Part shown: one piece after another, positions 58,417 through 63,237 of the stretch
How the letters are laid out: every line of letters begins with the position of its first letter
How positions within the stretch are numbered: the first letter of the stretch is position 1
DNA from: Fluviicola sp.
GTDB lineage: Bacteria > Bacteroidota > Bacteroidia > Flavobacteriales_D > Crocinitomicaceae
Direction: 5' to 3'
Assembly (NCBI GenBank): GCA_029866325.1
Contig: JARWZO010000003.1
Location: 124,001 to 188,000, forward strand
DNA length: 64,000 nucleotides
Notes under the pieces: model-generated
Seen by the model: the letters and a program-made list of their open reading frames with translations, nothing else
Database searches by the model: none
Told to the model about the DNA's origin: nothing
Made by a program: the position numbers and the translations under genes

Positions 58417-58857
58417 ATGTGTACTTCCTTAAGATCTTCTCACAGACAATGCGTCATCTGCAACAAACAACTTATCGGCCGCTCAGACAAACGATTCTGC
58501 GATATAACATGTAAAAATTACTACCACAGCGAGGTCCGAAAATCGACCAAAACAATTACTTCCGAAACAGTAAAAATTCTCAATAAAAATGTCGTTATTC
58601 TATACGGTATTATGGGAGAAGAAAAAGACCAATGTCTGATCGATAAATTGGCATTGGAACGACTCGGCTTCCGCTTCAATTATGTGACCGATGCCGAATC
58701 CAAGTATGGTGTTTTCCATTACAGTATTTTTGATTTTACTTACAGAATTATCAAGAAAAAACGCGTGCTAATTACTGTCGACAAAACCCGGAAGAGTATT
58801 TCTCCGTTCATTTTTAAACGATGGAGTCGTGAAATAACCGAGCAGCAACAATCCTAG
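58417..58857 (+). CDS. Zinc-ribbon protein of unknown function
   Basis: 146 aa. N-terminal Cys cluster CVICNKQLIGRSDKRFC and CDITCKNYYHSEVRKS (CxxC then CxxxC), a probable zinc-binding or RNA/DNA-binding ribbon, followed by an alpha/beta region of about 90 aa (LERLGFRFNYVTDAESKYGV) that I cannot assign. It precedes the DinB-DnaE cassette by 149 nt, but the cassette has its own promoter, so membership is uncertain. Confidence 0.7.
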   Translation: MCTSLRSSHRQCVICNKQLIGRSDKRFCDITCKNYYHSEVRKSTKTITSETVKILNKNVVILYGIMGEEKDQCLIDKLALERLGFRFNYVTDAESKYGVFHYSIFDFTYRIIKKKRVLITVDKTRKSISPFIFKRWSREITEQQQS

Positions 58858-58921
58858 TTCTTAATCGCAACCCTCCATTTCATTACTGATTCTCTCGGAC
58901 ACTCTTCTTTTTATTAACATT

Positions 58922-58963
58922 TTGATTAATTTATAATCATAATATTGATTAATTTATAATCAT
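58922..58963. promoter_or_regulatory. Duplicated dyad operator of the DinB-DnaE cassette
   Basis: The 19-mer TTGATTAATTTATAATCAT occurs twice (58922-58940 and 58945-58963), 23 bp apart. Each contains the perfect dyad TGATTA-ATTTA-TAATCA. The second copy overlaps the expected -33 region (TTG at 58945-58947). This is a classic repressor layout; the regulator is not encoded in the window. Confidence 0.7.
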
Positions 58964-58967
58964 TTTA

Positions 58968-58975
58968 TACCTTTG
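58968..58975 (+). promoter_or_regulatory. -7 promoter box of the DinB-DnaE cassette
   Basis: TACCTTTG, 20 nt after the TTG inside the second operator copy and 31 nt before the ATG at 59007. Confidence 0.6.
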
Positions 58976-59006
58976 GTCGTGTTCGTTGAAAAACACAAAT
59001 TCAATC

Positions 59007-60281
59007 ATGGATACTAAAATGGAATTATTCGATCAAACTGATAACAACAATAAACCGCGAACCATCGTGCACATGGACTTGGATACATTTTTTGTGTCCT
59101 GTGAACGGTTGATTGACAGTCGTTTGAATAATTTACCCATTATCATTGGTGGAACAACCGATCGTGGTGTCGTAGCATCTTGCAGCTATGAAGCCCGCTT
59201 ATTCGGAATCCATTCGGCTATGCCCATTAAAATGGCAAAAGAACGGTGTCCTGAGGTTATCATCATTCGAGGAAATGCCGACAATTACACAAAATTCTCC
59301 AGAAATGTCACCGACATCATTAAAGAAGCATCACCGACCTATGAAAAATCGTCTATCGATGAGTTCTACTTGGATCTTTCGGGTATGGATCAACATTACG
59401 GTTGTTTAAAGTATACCAGCGAACTGCGGCAAAAAATCATGCGTGAAACGGGTTTACCTATTTCTTTCGGGTTATCTTCCAATAAAACGGTTTCGAAAAT
59501 TGCTACAGGCGAAGCTAAACCCAACAACCAGAAATTCATCGATACAGGAATGGAAAAAACCTTTTTGAATCCTTTGTCGGTGAAAAAAATACCAATGGTT
59601 GGGTTGAAAACATATCAACTGCTCTGCTCGCTGGGAGCCAAACGAATTGCAACCATACAGGAAATGCCGATTGAGCTCATGGAAAATATCATGGGTAAAG
59701 CCGGAATAGCTATTTGGAAAAAAGCAAACGGAATCGACTTTTCTCCCGTTAAACAATACAACGAAAACAAATCAATCTCTACCGAACGGACATTTGATAG
59801 TGATACAACCGATGCACTGAAACTAAAATCGATTATTCGGGCAATGGCAGAAAACACAGCATTTCAGTTGCGGAAAAAACAAAAAGTATCAGCATGTGTT
59901 ACCGTCAAAATTCGATATGCCGATTTCCAAACGAAAACCATGCAAAAGCGGATTCCGTACACCGCAGCAGATCATGAAATCATTCAGACAGTAACCGAAT
60001 TGTTCGATAAACTCTTTACCAGACGTTTACTTGTGCGATTGGTAGGTATTCGATTGAGTGACCTCGTAACAGGAAATCATCAGATGCGTTTATTTGATTC
60101 ACCTGAGACAGATCGCTTTGCGTCACTCTATCAGGTAATGGATCAAATCCGTCTACGCTATGGCGAACAAGCCGTAATCAGAGCAGATGGCATGCAGATC
60201 TTCAACGGTAAAAAATATAAAAGTCGTATCGGTGAACCCGTTAACCGGTCGCCCGCAATCGATAACCAATTCTATTTTTAG
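59007..60281 (+). CDS. Y-family DNA polymerase (DinB/Pol IV type)
   Basis: 424 aa. Catalytic residues are intact: VHMDLDTFFVSCERL (first Asp) and KSSIDEFYLDLSGM (Asp-Glu), so it is an active translesion polymerase, unlike the catalytically dead ImuB. Steric-gate Phe-Phe present. HhH and little-finger domains follow. A clamp-binding motif QMRLFD lies near residue 365. It bypasses lesions with low fidelity. The start at 59007 is preferred over an upstream in-frame TTG. It is 7 nt upstream of a dnaE-type gene in the same transcription unit, an arrangement equivalent to mutasome cassettes. Confidence 0.93.
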   Translation: MDTKMELFDQTDNNNKPRTIVHMDLDTFFVSCERLIDSRLNNLPIIIGGTTDRGVVASCSYEARLFGIHSAMPIKMAKERCPEVIIIRGNADNYTKFSRNVTDIIKEASPTYEKSSIDEFYLDLSGMDQHYGCLKYTSELRQKIMRETGLPISFGLSSNKTVSKIATGEAKPNNQKFIDTGMEKTFLNPLSVKKIPMVGLKTYQLLCSLGAKRIATIQEMPIELMENIMGKAGIAIWKKANGIDFSPVKQYNENKSISTERTFDSDTTDALKLKSIIRAMAENTAFQLRKKQKVSACVTVKIRYADFQTKTMQKRIPYTAADHEIIQTVTELFDKLFTRRLLVRLVGIRLSDLVTGNHQMRLFDSPETDRFASLYQVMDQIRLRYGEQAVIRADGMQIFNGKKYKSRIGEPVNRSPAIDNQFYF

Positions 60282-60288
60282 CCGACCT

Positions 60289-63237
60289 ATGTTAAACTTC
60301 CACTCTTGCTATAGTTTAAGGTATGGAACCGTTGCTCCTGAACAACTCGTGAGCTGGATTGAAACATCCGGATATGATCGCGTGGCTTTAACCGATATCA
60401 ATAACACAAGTGCTTTATTGGGATATATCCGCCTGATGCAGCAAAAAAAACAAAATCCCATTGTTGGAATTGATTTTAGAAACGGTATTAACTGCTGTTA
60501 TGTAGGTATTGCAAAAAACAATGACGGACTGATGGAACTCAATCAATTCCTAAGCGAACACCTGCATCAACAAAAAGAATTCCCAGCCCTGGCACCACCG
60601 TTTCAACATTGCTATGTTATTTATCCCTGGGGAAAAAATGAATCACTTCTTAAACCAAATGAACGAATAGGAATCGGAGCACATCAACTCAATCGATTGC
60701 AGATTCAACAACCAAGTGATTGGAGAAATTATGTTGTATTACAACCCATGACTTTTCTGGATAAACGACAATTCAATACACATCGACTATTACGCGCCAT
60801 CGATTGCAATACACTGCTCTCTACCCTATCACCGCAGGAACAAACAAGATCTGATGAATTGCTCTTAAATAAACATGATTTCAACGAGCTGTTTCAGCAA
60901 TTTCCGGAACTGATTCAAAACACGGAAACACTACTCCAAAATTGTGGTATCGAATTTCAGTTTGACAACGAAGTTACTCCACAAAATTTAGCCACTTACA
61001 CAGGCAATAAAGAAAGTGATTATCAAAAAATAGAAGAACTCTGCCATTTAAACCTTCATAAACGCTATCCCAGCGCCGACGAAATAATCTTTAAACGAAT
61101 CAAGAAGGAATTGGATGTTATACGTCAAAAAGATTACCTCTCTTATTTCTTAATTGCATGGGATATTGTATCCTACGCGCATTCAAAAAAATATTTCTAC
61201 GTGGGTCGGGGAAGCGGCGCTAATAGTATCGTTGCCTATTTACTTGGAATTACCGACGTAGACCCGATCGAACTAGACCTATACTTTGAACGATTCATTA
61301 ATCTATACCGGAAGAATCCTCCTGACTTCGATATTGACTTTTCTTGGCGCGACCGTGACGATGTTACCGAATACATCTTCAAACGATTCCCGAATTCGGC
61401 TATGATCTGTACCTACAATACCTTTCAATACAAAGCTACCATCAGGGAACTGGGAAAGATTATGGGACTCCCAAAATCAAGTATCGATCAGCTTAGCGCC
61501 GAAAAACCATCCTATGATCGTTCAGATAAACTCGGAAAACTGATTCTGAAATACAGTAAACTGATCGCCGGTCTTCCCTCTTACCTAAGCGTGCACGCCG
61601 GCGGGATCATCATCAGTGAAAAACCGATTCATTGCTACACGTCCACATTCCTCACCTCGAAGAATTTCCCTACTACTCAATTTTCGATGCTAGAAGCCGA
61701 AGATGTGGGCTTTTACAAATTCGATATTCTTTCGCAACGAGGATTGGGTAAAATCAAAGACTGTTTGGATATTATCCATGCAAATCAACCGGAAAATCCA
61801 CCGCATGATATTCGCGATATCCGGCATTTCAAGCATGACGACAATGTAAATGCGCTTCTCAGAAAAGCACAAGCGCTGGGTTGTTTTTATGTAGAATCGC
61901 CCGGAATGCGAATGCTCATGACGAAACTAAAAACCAATGGATACCTGGAACTGGTAGCGGCCAGCTCAATCATACGACCGGGAGTAGCTCAATCAGGGAT
62001 GATGCGCGAATATATTGTACGACATCGCAATCCAGAGCGCAGAAACGATGCTGCCCCCAAATTACTTGAACTCATGCCCGACACTTATGGCGTGATGGTA
62101 TATCAGGAAGATGTCATCAAAGTAGCGAACCAGTTTGCAGGTCTCAGTTTGGAAGAATCAGACATTCTCCGCAAAGCAATGTCAGGAAAATACCGCTCAC
62201 GAATGGAATTCAAAATCGTTCGAGATCAATTCTTTAGCAATTGCATTGAAAAAGGCTATAAACTCGATTACATTCAATCAGTTTGGCTTCAAATAGAAAG
62301 TTTTGGCGGATTTGCCTTCTCAAAAGGGCATTCGGCTTCCTATGCGGTTGAAAGCTATCAAAGCTTGTATCTGAAAGCCTATTACCCTTTAGAATACATG
62401 GTGGCCACTATCAATAATTTCGGGGGTTTTTACCGTACAGAAATTTATGTACGAGAGGCAAAAAAACTGGGGGCAATCATTGAATCTCCCTGCATCAACA
62501 CTAGCGAATATCATACAACGATAAATGGTAATGAAATCTTCTTAGGATTTCAGCACATCGAAGGTCTTGAGCATAAGATTATCCAAACAATTCTAGTGGA
62601 AAGAGCCGAGAACGGCCCCTTTTTAAGCTTGAACGATCTTACACGACGGGCAATCATTCCTATCGAACAATTAACGCTCATCATCCGGATAAATGCACTG
62701 CGGTCGTTTGGAGTTTCAAAAAAATCTATGCTCTGGGAAGCGCACTTATACCAACACAAAAAACCCGTAAACCATAAAGTTCAAACGTCATTATTTGAAG
62801 GTCCAAAAAAAATGTTCGCCCTGCCCGAGTTTCATGAAAACCCGTTTGAAAATGCGTTTGAGCAACTGGAATTACTCGGTTTCCCGCTCTGTAACCCATT
62901 TGAATTGATTGACCAAAACCTCAAACCGCATCAGAAGGCAGTCAATATACCCGCACACATCGGAAAAGAAATAATTACTTACGGCTATTACGTAACCGCA
63001 AAACGTACTTCAACAAAAAACGGTGAGTCAATGATGTTTGGAACCTTTCTAGATATTGATGGTGAGTATATCGATACTGTACATTTCCCTAACGTTACTG
63101 CTTCCTATCCATTTAGAGGTGCGGGCGTCTATGAACTTACTGGAATCATTACTTCCGAATTTGATTTTCAAACACTTGAAGTGAGTACCATGAAAAAAAT
63201 AAATTACCGCCCCGATGTACGTTACTCAGACGAATAG
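60289..63237 (+). CDS. C-family DNA polymerase III alpha subunit, DnaE2/ImuC-like second copy
   Basis: 982 aa, shorter than replicative DnaE (about 1150-1200). N-terminal PHP domain is degenerate (FHSCYSLRYG and LTDINNTSALL lack metal histidines). Polymerase core complete: YFYVGRGSGANSIVAYLLGI, catalytic aspartates in NPPDFDIDFSWRDRD, MVYQEDVIKVANQFAGLSLE, and AFSKGHSASYAVESYQSLYL. A (HhH)2 region and a C-terminal OB domain (ITYGYYVTAKRTSTKNGESM) follow, but no tau-binding tail. This fits an error-prone mutasome polymerase working with the DinB enzyme just upstream. Start at 60289 gives the PHP N-terminus. Confidence 0.92.
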   Translation: MLNFHSCYSLRYGTVAPEQLVSWIETSGYDRVALTDINNTSALLGYIRLMQQKKQNPIVGIDFRNGINCCYVGIAKNNDGLMELNQFLSEHLHQQKEFPALAPPFQHCYVIYPWGKNESLLKPNERIGIGAHQLNRLQIQQPSDWRNYVVLQPMTFLDKRQFNTHRLLRAIDCNTLLSTLSPQEQTRSDELLLNKHDFNELFQQFPELIQNTETLLQNCGIEFQFDNEVTPQNLATYTGNKESDYQKIEELCHLNLHKRYPSADEIIFKRIKKELDVIRQKDYLSYFLIAWDIVSYAHSKKYFYVGRGSGANSIVAYLLGITDVDPIELDLYFERFINLYRKNPPDFDIDFSWRDRDDVTEYIFKRFPNSAMICTYNTFQYKATIRELGKIMGLPKSSIDQLSAEKPSYDRSDKLGKLILKYSKLIAGLPSYLSVHAGGIIISEKPIHCYTSTFLTSKNFPTTQFSMLEAEDVGFYKFDILSQRGLGKIKDCLDIIHANQPENPPHDIRDIRHFKHDDNVNALLRKAQALGCFYVESPGMRMLMTKLKTNGYLELVAASSIIRPGVAQSGMMREYIVRHRNPERRNDAAPKLLELMPDTYGVMVYQEDVIKVANQFAGLSLEESDILRKAMSGKYRSRMEFKIVRDQFFSNCIEKGYKLDYIQSVWLQIESFGGFAFSKGHSASYAVESYQSLYLKAYYPLEYMVATINNFGGFYRTEIYVREAKKLGAIIESPCINTSEYHTTINGNEIFLGFQHIEGLEHKIIQTILVERAENGPFLSLNDLTRRAIIPIEQLTLIIRINALRSFGVSKKSMLWEAHLYQHKKPVNHKVQTSLFEGPKKMFALPEFHENPFENAFEQLELLGFPLCNPFELIDQNLKPHQKAVNIPAHIGKEIITYGYYVTAKRTSTKNGESMMFGTFLDIDGEYIDTVHFPNVTASYPFRGAGVYELTGIITSEFDFQTLEVSTMKKINYRPDVRYSDE

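Follow-up and report, generated by a model that had tools for sequence, protein, structure and literature searches.

Which regulator controls a pair of error-prone-type polymerase genes that stand under a duplicated inverted repeat in the freshwater bacterium Fluviicola sp.? The stretch studied is a 64-kb window (positions 124001-188000 of contig JARWZO010000003.1) in a 4.68-Mb genome, and the genes are polY, for a Y-family DNA polymerase, and dnaE2, for a second DnaE (Table 1). An earlier note on this DNA had reported two identical TGATTA-N5-TAATCA copies over the −33 region of a TAnnTTTG promoter in front of these genes, and had guessed at a damage-response operator. Both copies are exact and identical, with 23 bp from start to start, and the TAnnTTTG box (TACCTTTG) is present at 58968-58975. 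The placement over the −33 region holds for dyad 2, which overlaps the ATTG at 58944-58947, but not for dyad 1, which lies further upstream; the consensus at −33 is TTTG, and TAnnTTTG is the promoter consensus. We consider it highly probable from the sequence evidence that the two dyads together form a tandem operator of the genome's non-canonical LexA, and that this repressor would control polY-dnaE2 after DNA damage via RecA.

Conservation of the tandem dyad

Matches to the dyad were counted against the reversed pattern as a control, with the mismatch limit stated for each count. At up to two mismatches the window holds 8 matches (6.1 expected, chance level) and the whole genome 429, compared with 228 for the control. 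Loose matching was rejected as evidence because such matches in the window, like those to a shorter 15-mer in the genome, are no more frequent than chance would give; exact sites, their location and their tandem spacing were used instead. The exact 17-mer occurs three times in the genome (control, none) and 37 times across 14 genomes of the genus (control, once). At up to one mismatch the genome has 26 sites, and for six of these another dyad (0-3 mismatches) stands at a distance of 22-23 bp. These six make up four tandem operators, every one upstream of a gene, namely polY-dnaE2, a 107-amino acid open reading frame (ORF) on contig C7, a PA0069-type radical SAM gene on contig C9 and a repressor gene on contig C11. 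For the remaining 20 sites, the partner at 22-23 bp has at least five mismatches.

PolY promoters were surveyed at 57 loci (nine from the genus, 24 from other genera of the family and 24 from other families), one of which had just 34 bp upstream. The comparison of orthologous cassettes that the earlier note had proposed found a dyad with up to one mismatch in all nine genus genomes that have PolY2 (eight exact), and the same holds for 11 of the 24 promoters from other genera of the family. Tandem dyads (22-23 bp apart, up to two mismatches each) are present in all nine genus promoters, and TAnnTTTG follows the start of dyad 1 by 45 bp in eight of them, the present locus included, and by 46 bp in the ninth; the geometry is thus conserved. 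That the repeat arose by chance, or through a recent, local and functionless duplication, would be in keeping with AT-rich intergenic DNA and with the chance-level weak matches in the window, but this is contradicted by the 37 exact sites against one and by the nine of nine orthologous promoters, and we regard it as practically eliminated.

The LexA-like repressor and its own promoter

A Peptidase_S24 search of the genome gave two matches, both under the cut-off. One of the two is the product of the LexA-like repressor gene on contig C11, a CI-type helix-turn-helix (HTH) protein that matches HTH_3 with 51.7 bits. An S24 match is found once in each of the 14 genus genomes and at least once in 69 of the 79 genomes searched, this one included. 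From the 71 LexA-like proteins collected (70 different), 28 orthologs were aligned; A117-G118, S155 and K194 are invariant in all 28, each of which has an HTH_3-type domain and matches Peptidase_S24 at E≤0.1. Pfam gives HTH_3/XRE-type domains and S24 only, and not the winged helix of canonical LexA. In a tree of the 71 sequences, all 14 genus proteins fall in a clade of 51 (support 100/97), and the other 20 form two clades of 10. A viral origin of the repressor was considered and not adopted, as one scan of viral contigs turned up just two matches, both weak and limited to the HTH end.

The promoter of the repressor gene carries TGATTA-N5-TAATCT directly 5' of the ATG and a dyad with three mismatches 23 bp away. 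As a spacer control, the half-sites TGATTA and TAATCA were searched at up to one mismatch in 50 orthologous LexA-like promoters (14 genus, 36 others). A spacer of five is found in every genus promoter (14 of 14) and in 19 of the 36 others, spacers of four and six in none of the 50, and any other spacer from 0 to 12 in at most three. In 24 of the 50 promoters two dyads stand exactly 23 bp apart; 50 shuffles gave at most two at any distance. In all 14 genus promoters TAnnTTTG begins 6 bp upstream of dyad 2, with which it overlaps. A search for the dyad at an S24/XRE-type repressor gene, as the earlier note had suggested, was thereby positive throughout the genus.

Operator sequence was also compared with repressor similarity at up to two mismatches, in groups of 51 and 22 promoters (one gene twice in each; a locus with less than 80 bp upstream was dropped). 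LexA-like genes of at least 46% identity have TGATTA-N5-TAATCA in 43 of 51 promoters and TGCTAA-N5-TTAGCA in none, whereas the less similar genes have them in 2 and 7 of 22. The dyads listed for these promoters do not include GGA-N5-TCC, for which no dedicated count was made.

These data bear on whether a different regulator, another XRE or a response-regulator protein, binds the dyads, with the LexA-like gene merely one of its targets. Such a regulator would account for the absence of recA, a usual SOS member, from the targets, and binding by LexA is putative. Against it, all 14 genus genomes have the dyad where the LexA-like gene begins, with the dyad-N5-dyad arrangement known for this repressor family (PMC8565304), and the operator sequence follows the repressor. 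We consider a different regulator unlikely and favor the LexA-like protein.

According to the main text of PMC8565304, CI-like non-canonical LexA proteins of the S24 family run the SOS response in Bacteroidetes via GGA-N5-TCC or CTAA-N5-TTAG, and they bind dyad-N5-dyad sites, also on their own promoter. The Fluviicola system resembles those described there in its CI-like HTH and S24-like domain, its Ala-Gly, Ser and Lys residues, the dyad-N5-dyad at its own gene, and its error-prone polymerase and SplB-type targets. It differs in its half-sites, TGATTA/TAATCA rather than GGA-N5-TCC, CTAA-N5-TTAG or the TTAC-N5-GTAA of Elizabethkingia, in sites often paired at 23 bp, and in recA, which is apparently outside the regulon. 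The claim of the earlier note that the operator is not a standard LexA box therefore stands as to sequence, which differs from both published non-canonical motifs, while the family is of the non-canonical LexA type and the dyad-N5-dyad form is kept. In a 13-kb locus of Salinimicrobium catena four GGA-N5-TCC matches were found, two of them within 40 bp before PolY, which is followed by dnaE2; this locus is a good control for the published motif.

The operator OR of phage lambda has 17-bp dyads, gaps of 6-7 bp and neighboring dimers 23-24 bp apart. The Fluviicola operator shares the 17-bp sites and has a gap of 6 bp, which fits the CI-like DNA-binding domain of its repressor. Unlike OR, it is a two-site chromosomal operator of unrelated sequence, and its cooperativity is presumed.

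A second, less similar LexA-like gene is divergent to PolY at loci L117, L118, L121, L122 and L124 of the same family and at L114 and L119 of other families. At some of these loci another dyad, such as TTGCTATAAATTATAGCAA in L124, lies between the two genes. PolY divergent to a LexA-like gene has been reported for Elizabethkingia (PMC8565304).

Other genes carrying the dyad, and recA

The 37 exact sites in the 14 genomes were classed by hand. Nine lie at polY, five at PA0069-type (SplB-like) radical SAM genes, four at genes for YifB/ComM-type ATPases and one at a UDG-linked radical SAM gene, so that 19 of 37 are at polY, radical-SAM repair-type or yifB genes. Six more are at one conserved gene without a family match, two at an ATPase gene, four inside ORFs and six in other places. 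The four yifB sites lie 56-58 bp before the ATG, including a single exact site 58 bp before the yifB/comM-type gene of the present genome. YifB/ComM is linked to recombination. SplB-type and UDG-linked genes belong to Bacteroidetes SOS networks (PMC8565304).

The earlier note had said that absence of the dyad from orthologous cassettes and from other repair promoters would speak against its guess. The dyad was found in the orthologous cassettes, at the repressor gene and at repair-linked genes that include the PA0069-type and UDG-linked radical SAM genes. With nine of nine PolY2 cassettes and 14 of 14 XRE-S24 repressor genes, the guess of a damage-response operator is strongly supported on the sequence side, and the TGATTA-N5-TAATCA dyad is very probably the DNA-damage (SOS) switch of this lineage. 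An operator that is real but not damage-responsive, with a repressor that answers another signal, would be in line with the differing RecA dependence of S24-type repressors. The invariant cleavage and catalytic residues in 28 of 28 orthologs and the share of exact sites at polymerase, radical-SAM repair-type or yifB genes argue against another signal, which we judge slightly less probable still than a different regulator.

Several results weigh against a LexA-controlled damage operator. Ten of the 37 exact sites lie within ORFs or at scattered places, and the shorter GAYTA-N5-TARTC is not enriched in the genome (15 matches, 25 for the control). The S24 match of the repressor scores 16.3 bits, below the Pfam cut-off of 23.3. 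PolY2 is missing from five of the 14 genus genomes, where Y-family matches do not exceed about 35% identity, and in other families just 2 of 24 PolY loci have the dyad at up to one mismatch. A search at recA, also suggested by the earlier note, was negative; TGATTA-N5-TAATCA is absent at up to two mismatches from recA in 13 of the 13 genus genomes examined, the fourteenth (G004) having been left out because its recA is in pieces. Membership of recA in the regulon was rejected on this count.

On the preferred reading of a LexA tandem operator, we infer repressor binding, cooperativity, cleavage, induction and complex formation from what can be read in the DNA: the dyad and its spacing, the orthologous promoters, the repressor's own gene, the repair-linked genes and the cleavage residues. 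Two repressor dimers would sit side by side on the 17-bp sites and cover the polY-dnaE2 promoter. Once DNA is damaged, RecA filaments would induce the repressor to cleave itself at the Ala-Gly bond, the promoter would open, and PolY and DnaE2 would be made, which together with RecA may act as a translesion mutasome.

The recA promoters of the 13 genus genomes (loci L181-L193) carry another dyad, CGTAA-N5-TTACG, exact in 12 of 13 and one base off in G011; in the present genome it lies 60 bp before the ATG (L226 1501-1515). Over the 14 genomes this pattern has 122 sites compared with 96 for the control, with unrelated genes among them, and we therefore claim no regulon for it. It was also dropped as a part of PolY promoters; at the loci inspected its position is past the dyads, on the side of a divergent gene. 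A wider proposal, which we put forward tentatively and with some doubt, is that TGATTA-N5-TAATCA may define a third DNA-binding class of non-canonical LexA, present in most of the family around Fluviicola, which would keep lambda-operator geometry and repress a translesion and repair regulon that recA has left to come under CGTAA-N5-TTACG, a different conserved dyad.

Two genes behind the dyad are candidates for new members of the response. The 107-amino acid protein (G000:C7:89314-89634; L013 1520-1840) starts 2-3 bp behind its tandem operator and has no family in Pfam, NCBIfam or PADLOC. A clear ortholog (77%) is present only in G011, with weak ones in three more of the 79 genomes; it is a candidate SOS-induced small protein. 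A conserved protein of about 370 amino acids (L166 1667-2767 in G008, with orthologs in G001, G003, G007, G009 and G012) has the exact dyad upstream of its gene in six genomes and no match in Pfam or NCBIfam, and its gene is a candidate new SOS gene. The PA0069-type gene of the present genome (C9, L015 ~1610-1720) has its N-terminal codons in two frames, unlike that of G011, owing to either a frameshift or a sequence error.

The polymerase cassette and related systems

Table 1. Features of the operator, the polY-dnaE2 cassette and the repressor gene. Positions are those of the window, except for the repressor gene.
Feature	Position	Strand	Description
Operator dyad 1	58923..58939	.	TGATTA-ATTTA-TAATCA (TGATTAATTTATAATCA), 17 bp, exact
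−33-like element	58944..58947	+	ATTG; last two bases are the first two of dyad 2
Operator dyad 2	58946..58962	.	Copy identical to dyad 1 (TGATTAATTTATAATCA); 23 bp start-to-start; 6-bp gap
−7 element	58968..58975	+	TAnnTTTG (TACCTTTG), 45 bp downstream of dyad 1 start
Y-family DNA polymerase, Bacteroidetes PolY2 type	59007..60281	+	424 aa; catalytic motifs MDLDTFF and SIDE
Beta-clamp-type motif	60081..60095	+	QMRLF, PolY residues 359-363
RecA-N-terminus-like (RecA-NT) motif	60111..60194	+	PolY residues 369-396
Second DnaE (DnaE2)	60289..63237	+	982 aa; PDFDIDF and KFDIL; QTSLF clamp-type motif at residue 832
LexA-like repressor gene	C11:158455-159285		276 aa; HTH_3 and S24-like, CI-type HTH

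The polY and dnaE ORFs are 7 bp apart, and the genome has two DnaE genes and two Y-family genes. The earlier note had called the Y-family polymerase catalytically intact, and its two motifs are consistent with an active enzyme rather than a catalytically dead ImuB. PolY aligns to Pol IV structures; the type of its first catalytic motif is kept in 49 of 51 orthologs and SIDE in 40. A QxxLF sequence, a motif of the beta-clamp type, is found in the C-terminal part of 49 of the 51. In the 51-ortholog profile the RecA-NT motif outscores all other windows (z 4.2), a result equalled by 5 of 500 shuffled queries; the single-sequence test was weaker (73 of 2000 shuffles equally good). The DnaE described in the earlier note as shortened, with a degenerate PHP domain, proved to be so, the match covering positions 3-94 of 164 in Pfam PHP. 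No ImuA lies beside the cassette, and the genome has one RecA-family match at E≤0.001; no ImuA-specific model was run.

For 55 PolY loci, which include a few genes twice, 400 bp or more of downstream sequence was available, and 40 of them showed dnaE2 on the strand of PolY. In eight of those 40 dnaE2 precedes PolY, so that the sequence 5' of PolY does not represent the operon promoter there; the other 15 have no dnaE2 within the stretch covered. By the two proteins compared, the nearest relative is genome G011.

Putative mutasomes of Bacteroidetes PolY2 and DnaE2, with or without RecA, have already been published (PMC6511836, PMC12926913), for example from Cellulophaga algicola (PMC6511836), and PMC12926913 names the group DnaE2B-PolY-RecA. 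PHP domains of the reduced kind are largely restricted to Bacteroidetes DnaE2 (PMC3919608). The cassette shares with the Bacteroidetes PolY2-DnaE2B-RecA mutasome an active-type Y-family polymerase with a RecA-NT-like motif, an adjoining DnaE2 with a reduced PHP domain, two apparently intact polymerases and the lack of ImuB. No difference was found in the protein parts, which were compared without a DnaE2 tree. The pairing of an active PolY with DnaE2 without ImuA, which the earlier note had set against the known mutasomes, is thus real but not new. With the ImuA-ImuB-DnaE2 mutasome under LexA the cassette has in common a Y-family protein, a second DnaE and SOS-type control; it differs in its active-type PolY in place of dead ImuB, the lack of an adjoining ImuA, and another repressor and operator.

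The polymerase cassette and the regulator family are therefore already known. By its sequence, the operator form differs from the published GGA-N5-TCC and CTAA-N5-TTAG clusters and falls in neither. The TGATTA-N5-TAATCA operator, Fluviicola and Crocinitomicaceae do not occur in the main text of PMC8565304, which mentions diverged palindromes in some non-canonical LexA paralogs and may list this operator among those of its Table S10. A literature search by title or abstract found no description of an SOS operator for Fluviicola or Crocinitomicaceae. We thus propose a concrete SOS operator and regulator for a group for which none was found described, and a link to damage control in the Fluviicola group would follow for the PolY2-DnaE2-RecA mutasome, until now a computational proposal. 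Here a repressor of presumed phage origin may have kept paired operators like those of phages. The operator sequence shifts with the lineage of its repressor, so that the evolution of SOS specificity becomes open to study.

In seven other Fluviicola genomes the polY-dnaE2 gap is about 350-530 bp, compared with 7 bp in the window. At three of these seven loci (L058, L064 and L065) the long gap holds a hairpin of about 59 nt with the strict pattern CCTGGATGTCACG...CGTGACA-CAGG (−24 to −25 kcal/mol), and the gaps of L142 and L144 look similar to it by eye. The five long gaps that were read showed no further long ORF, and Rfam gave no match at E≤0.1 for six loci with a longer gap. Directly 5' of the operators, on the same strand, is a 146-amino acid ORF with a Cys-rich start (58417-58857, +), with no match in Pfam, NCBIfam or PADLOC. 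As expected for Bacteroidota, a T9SS type B sorting domain is among the products encoded in the window.

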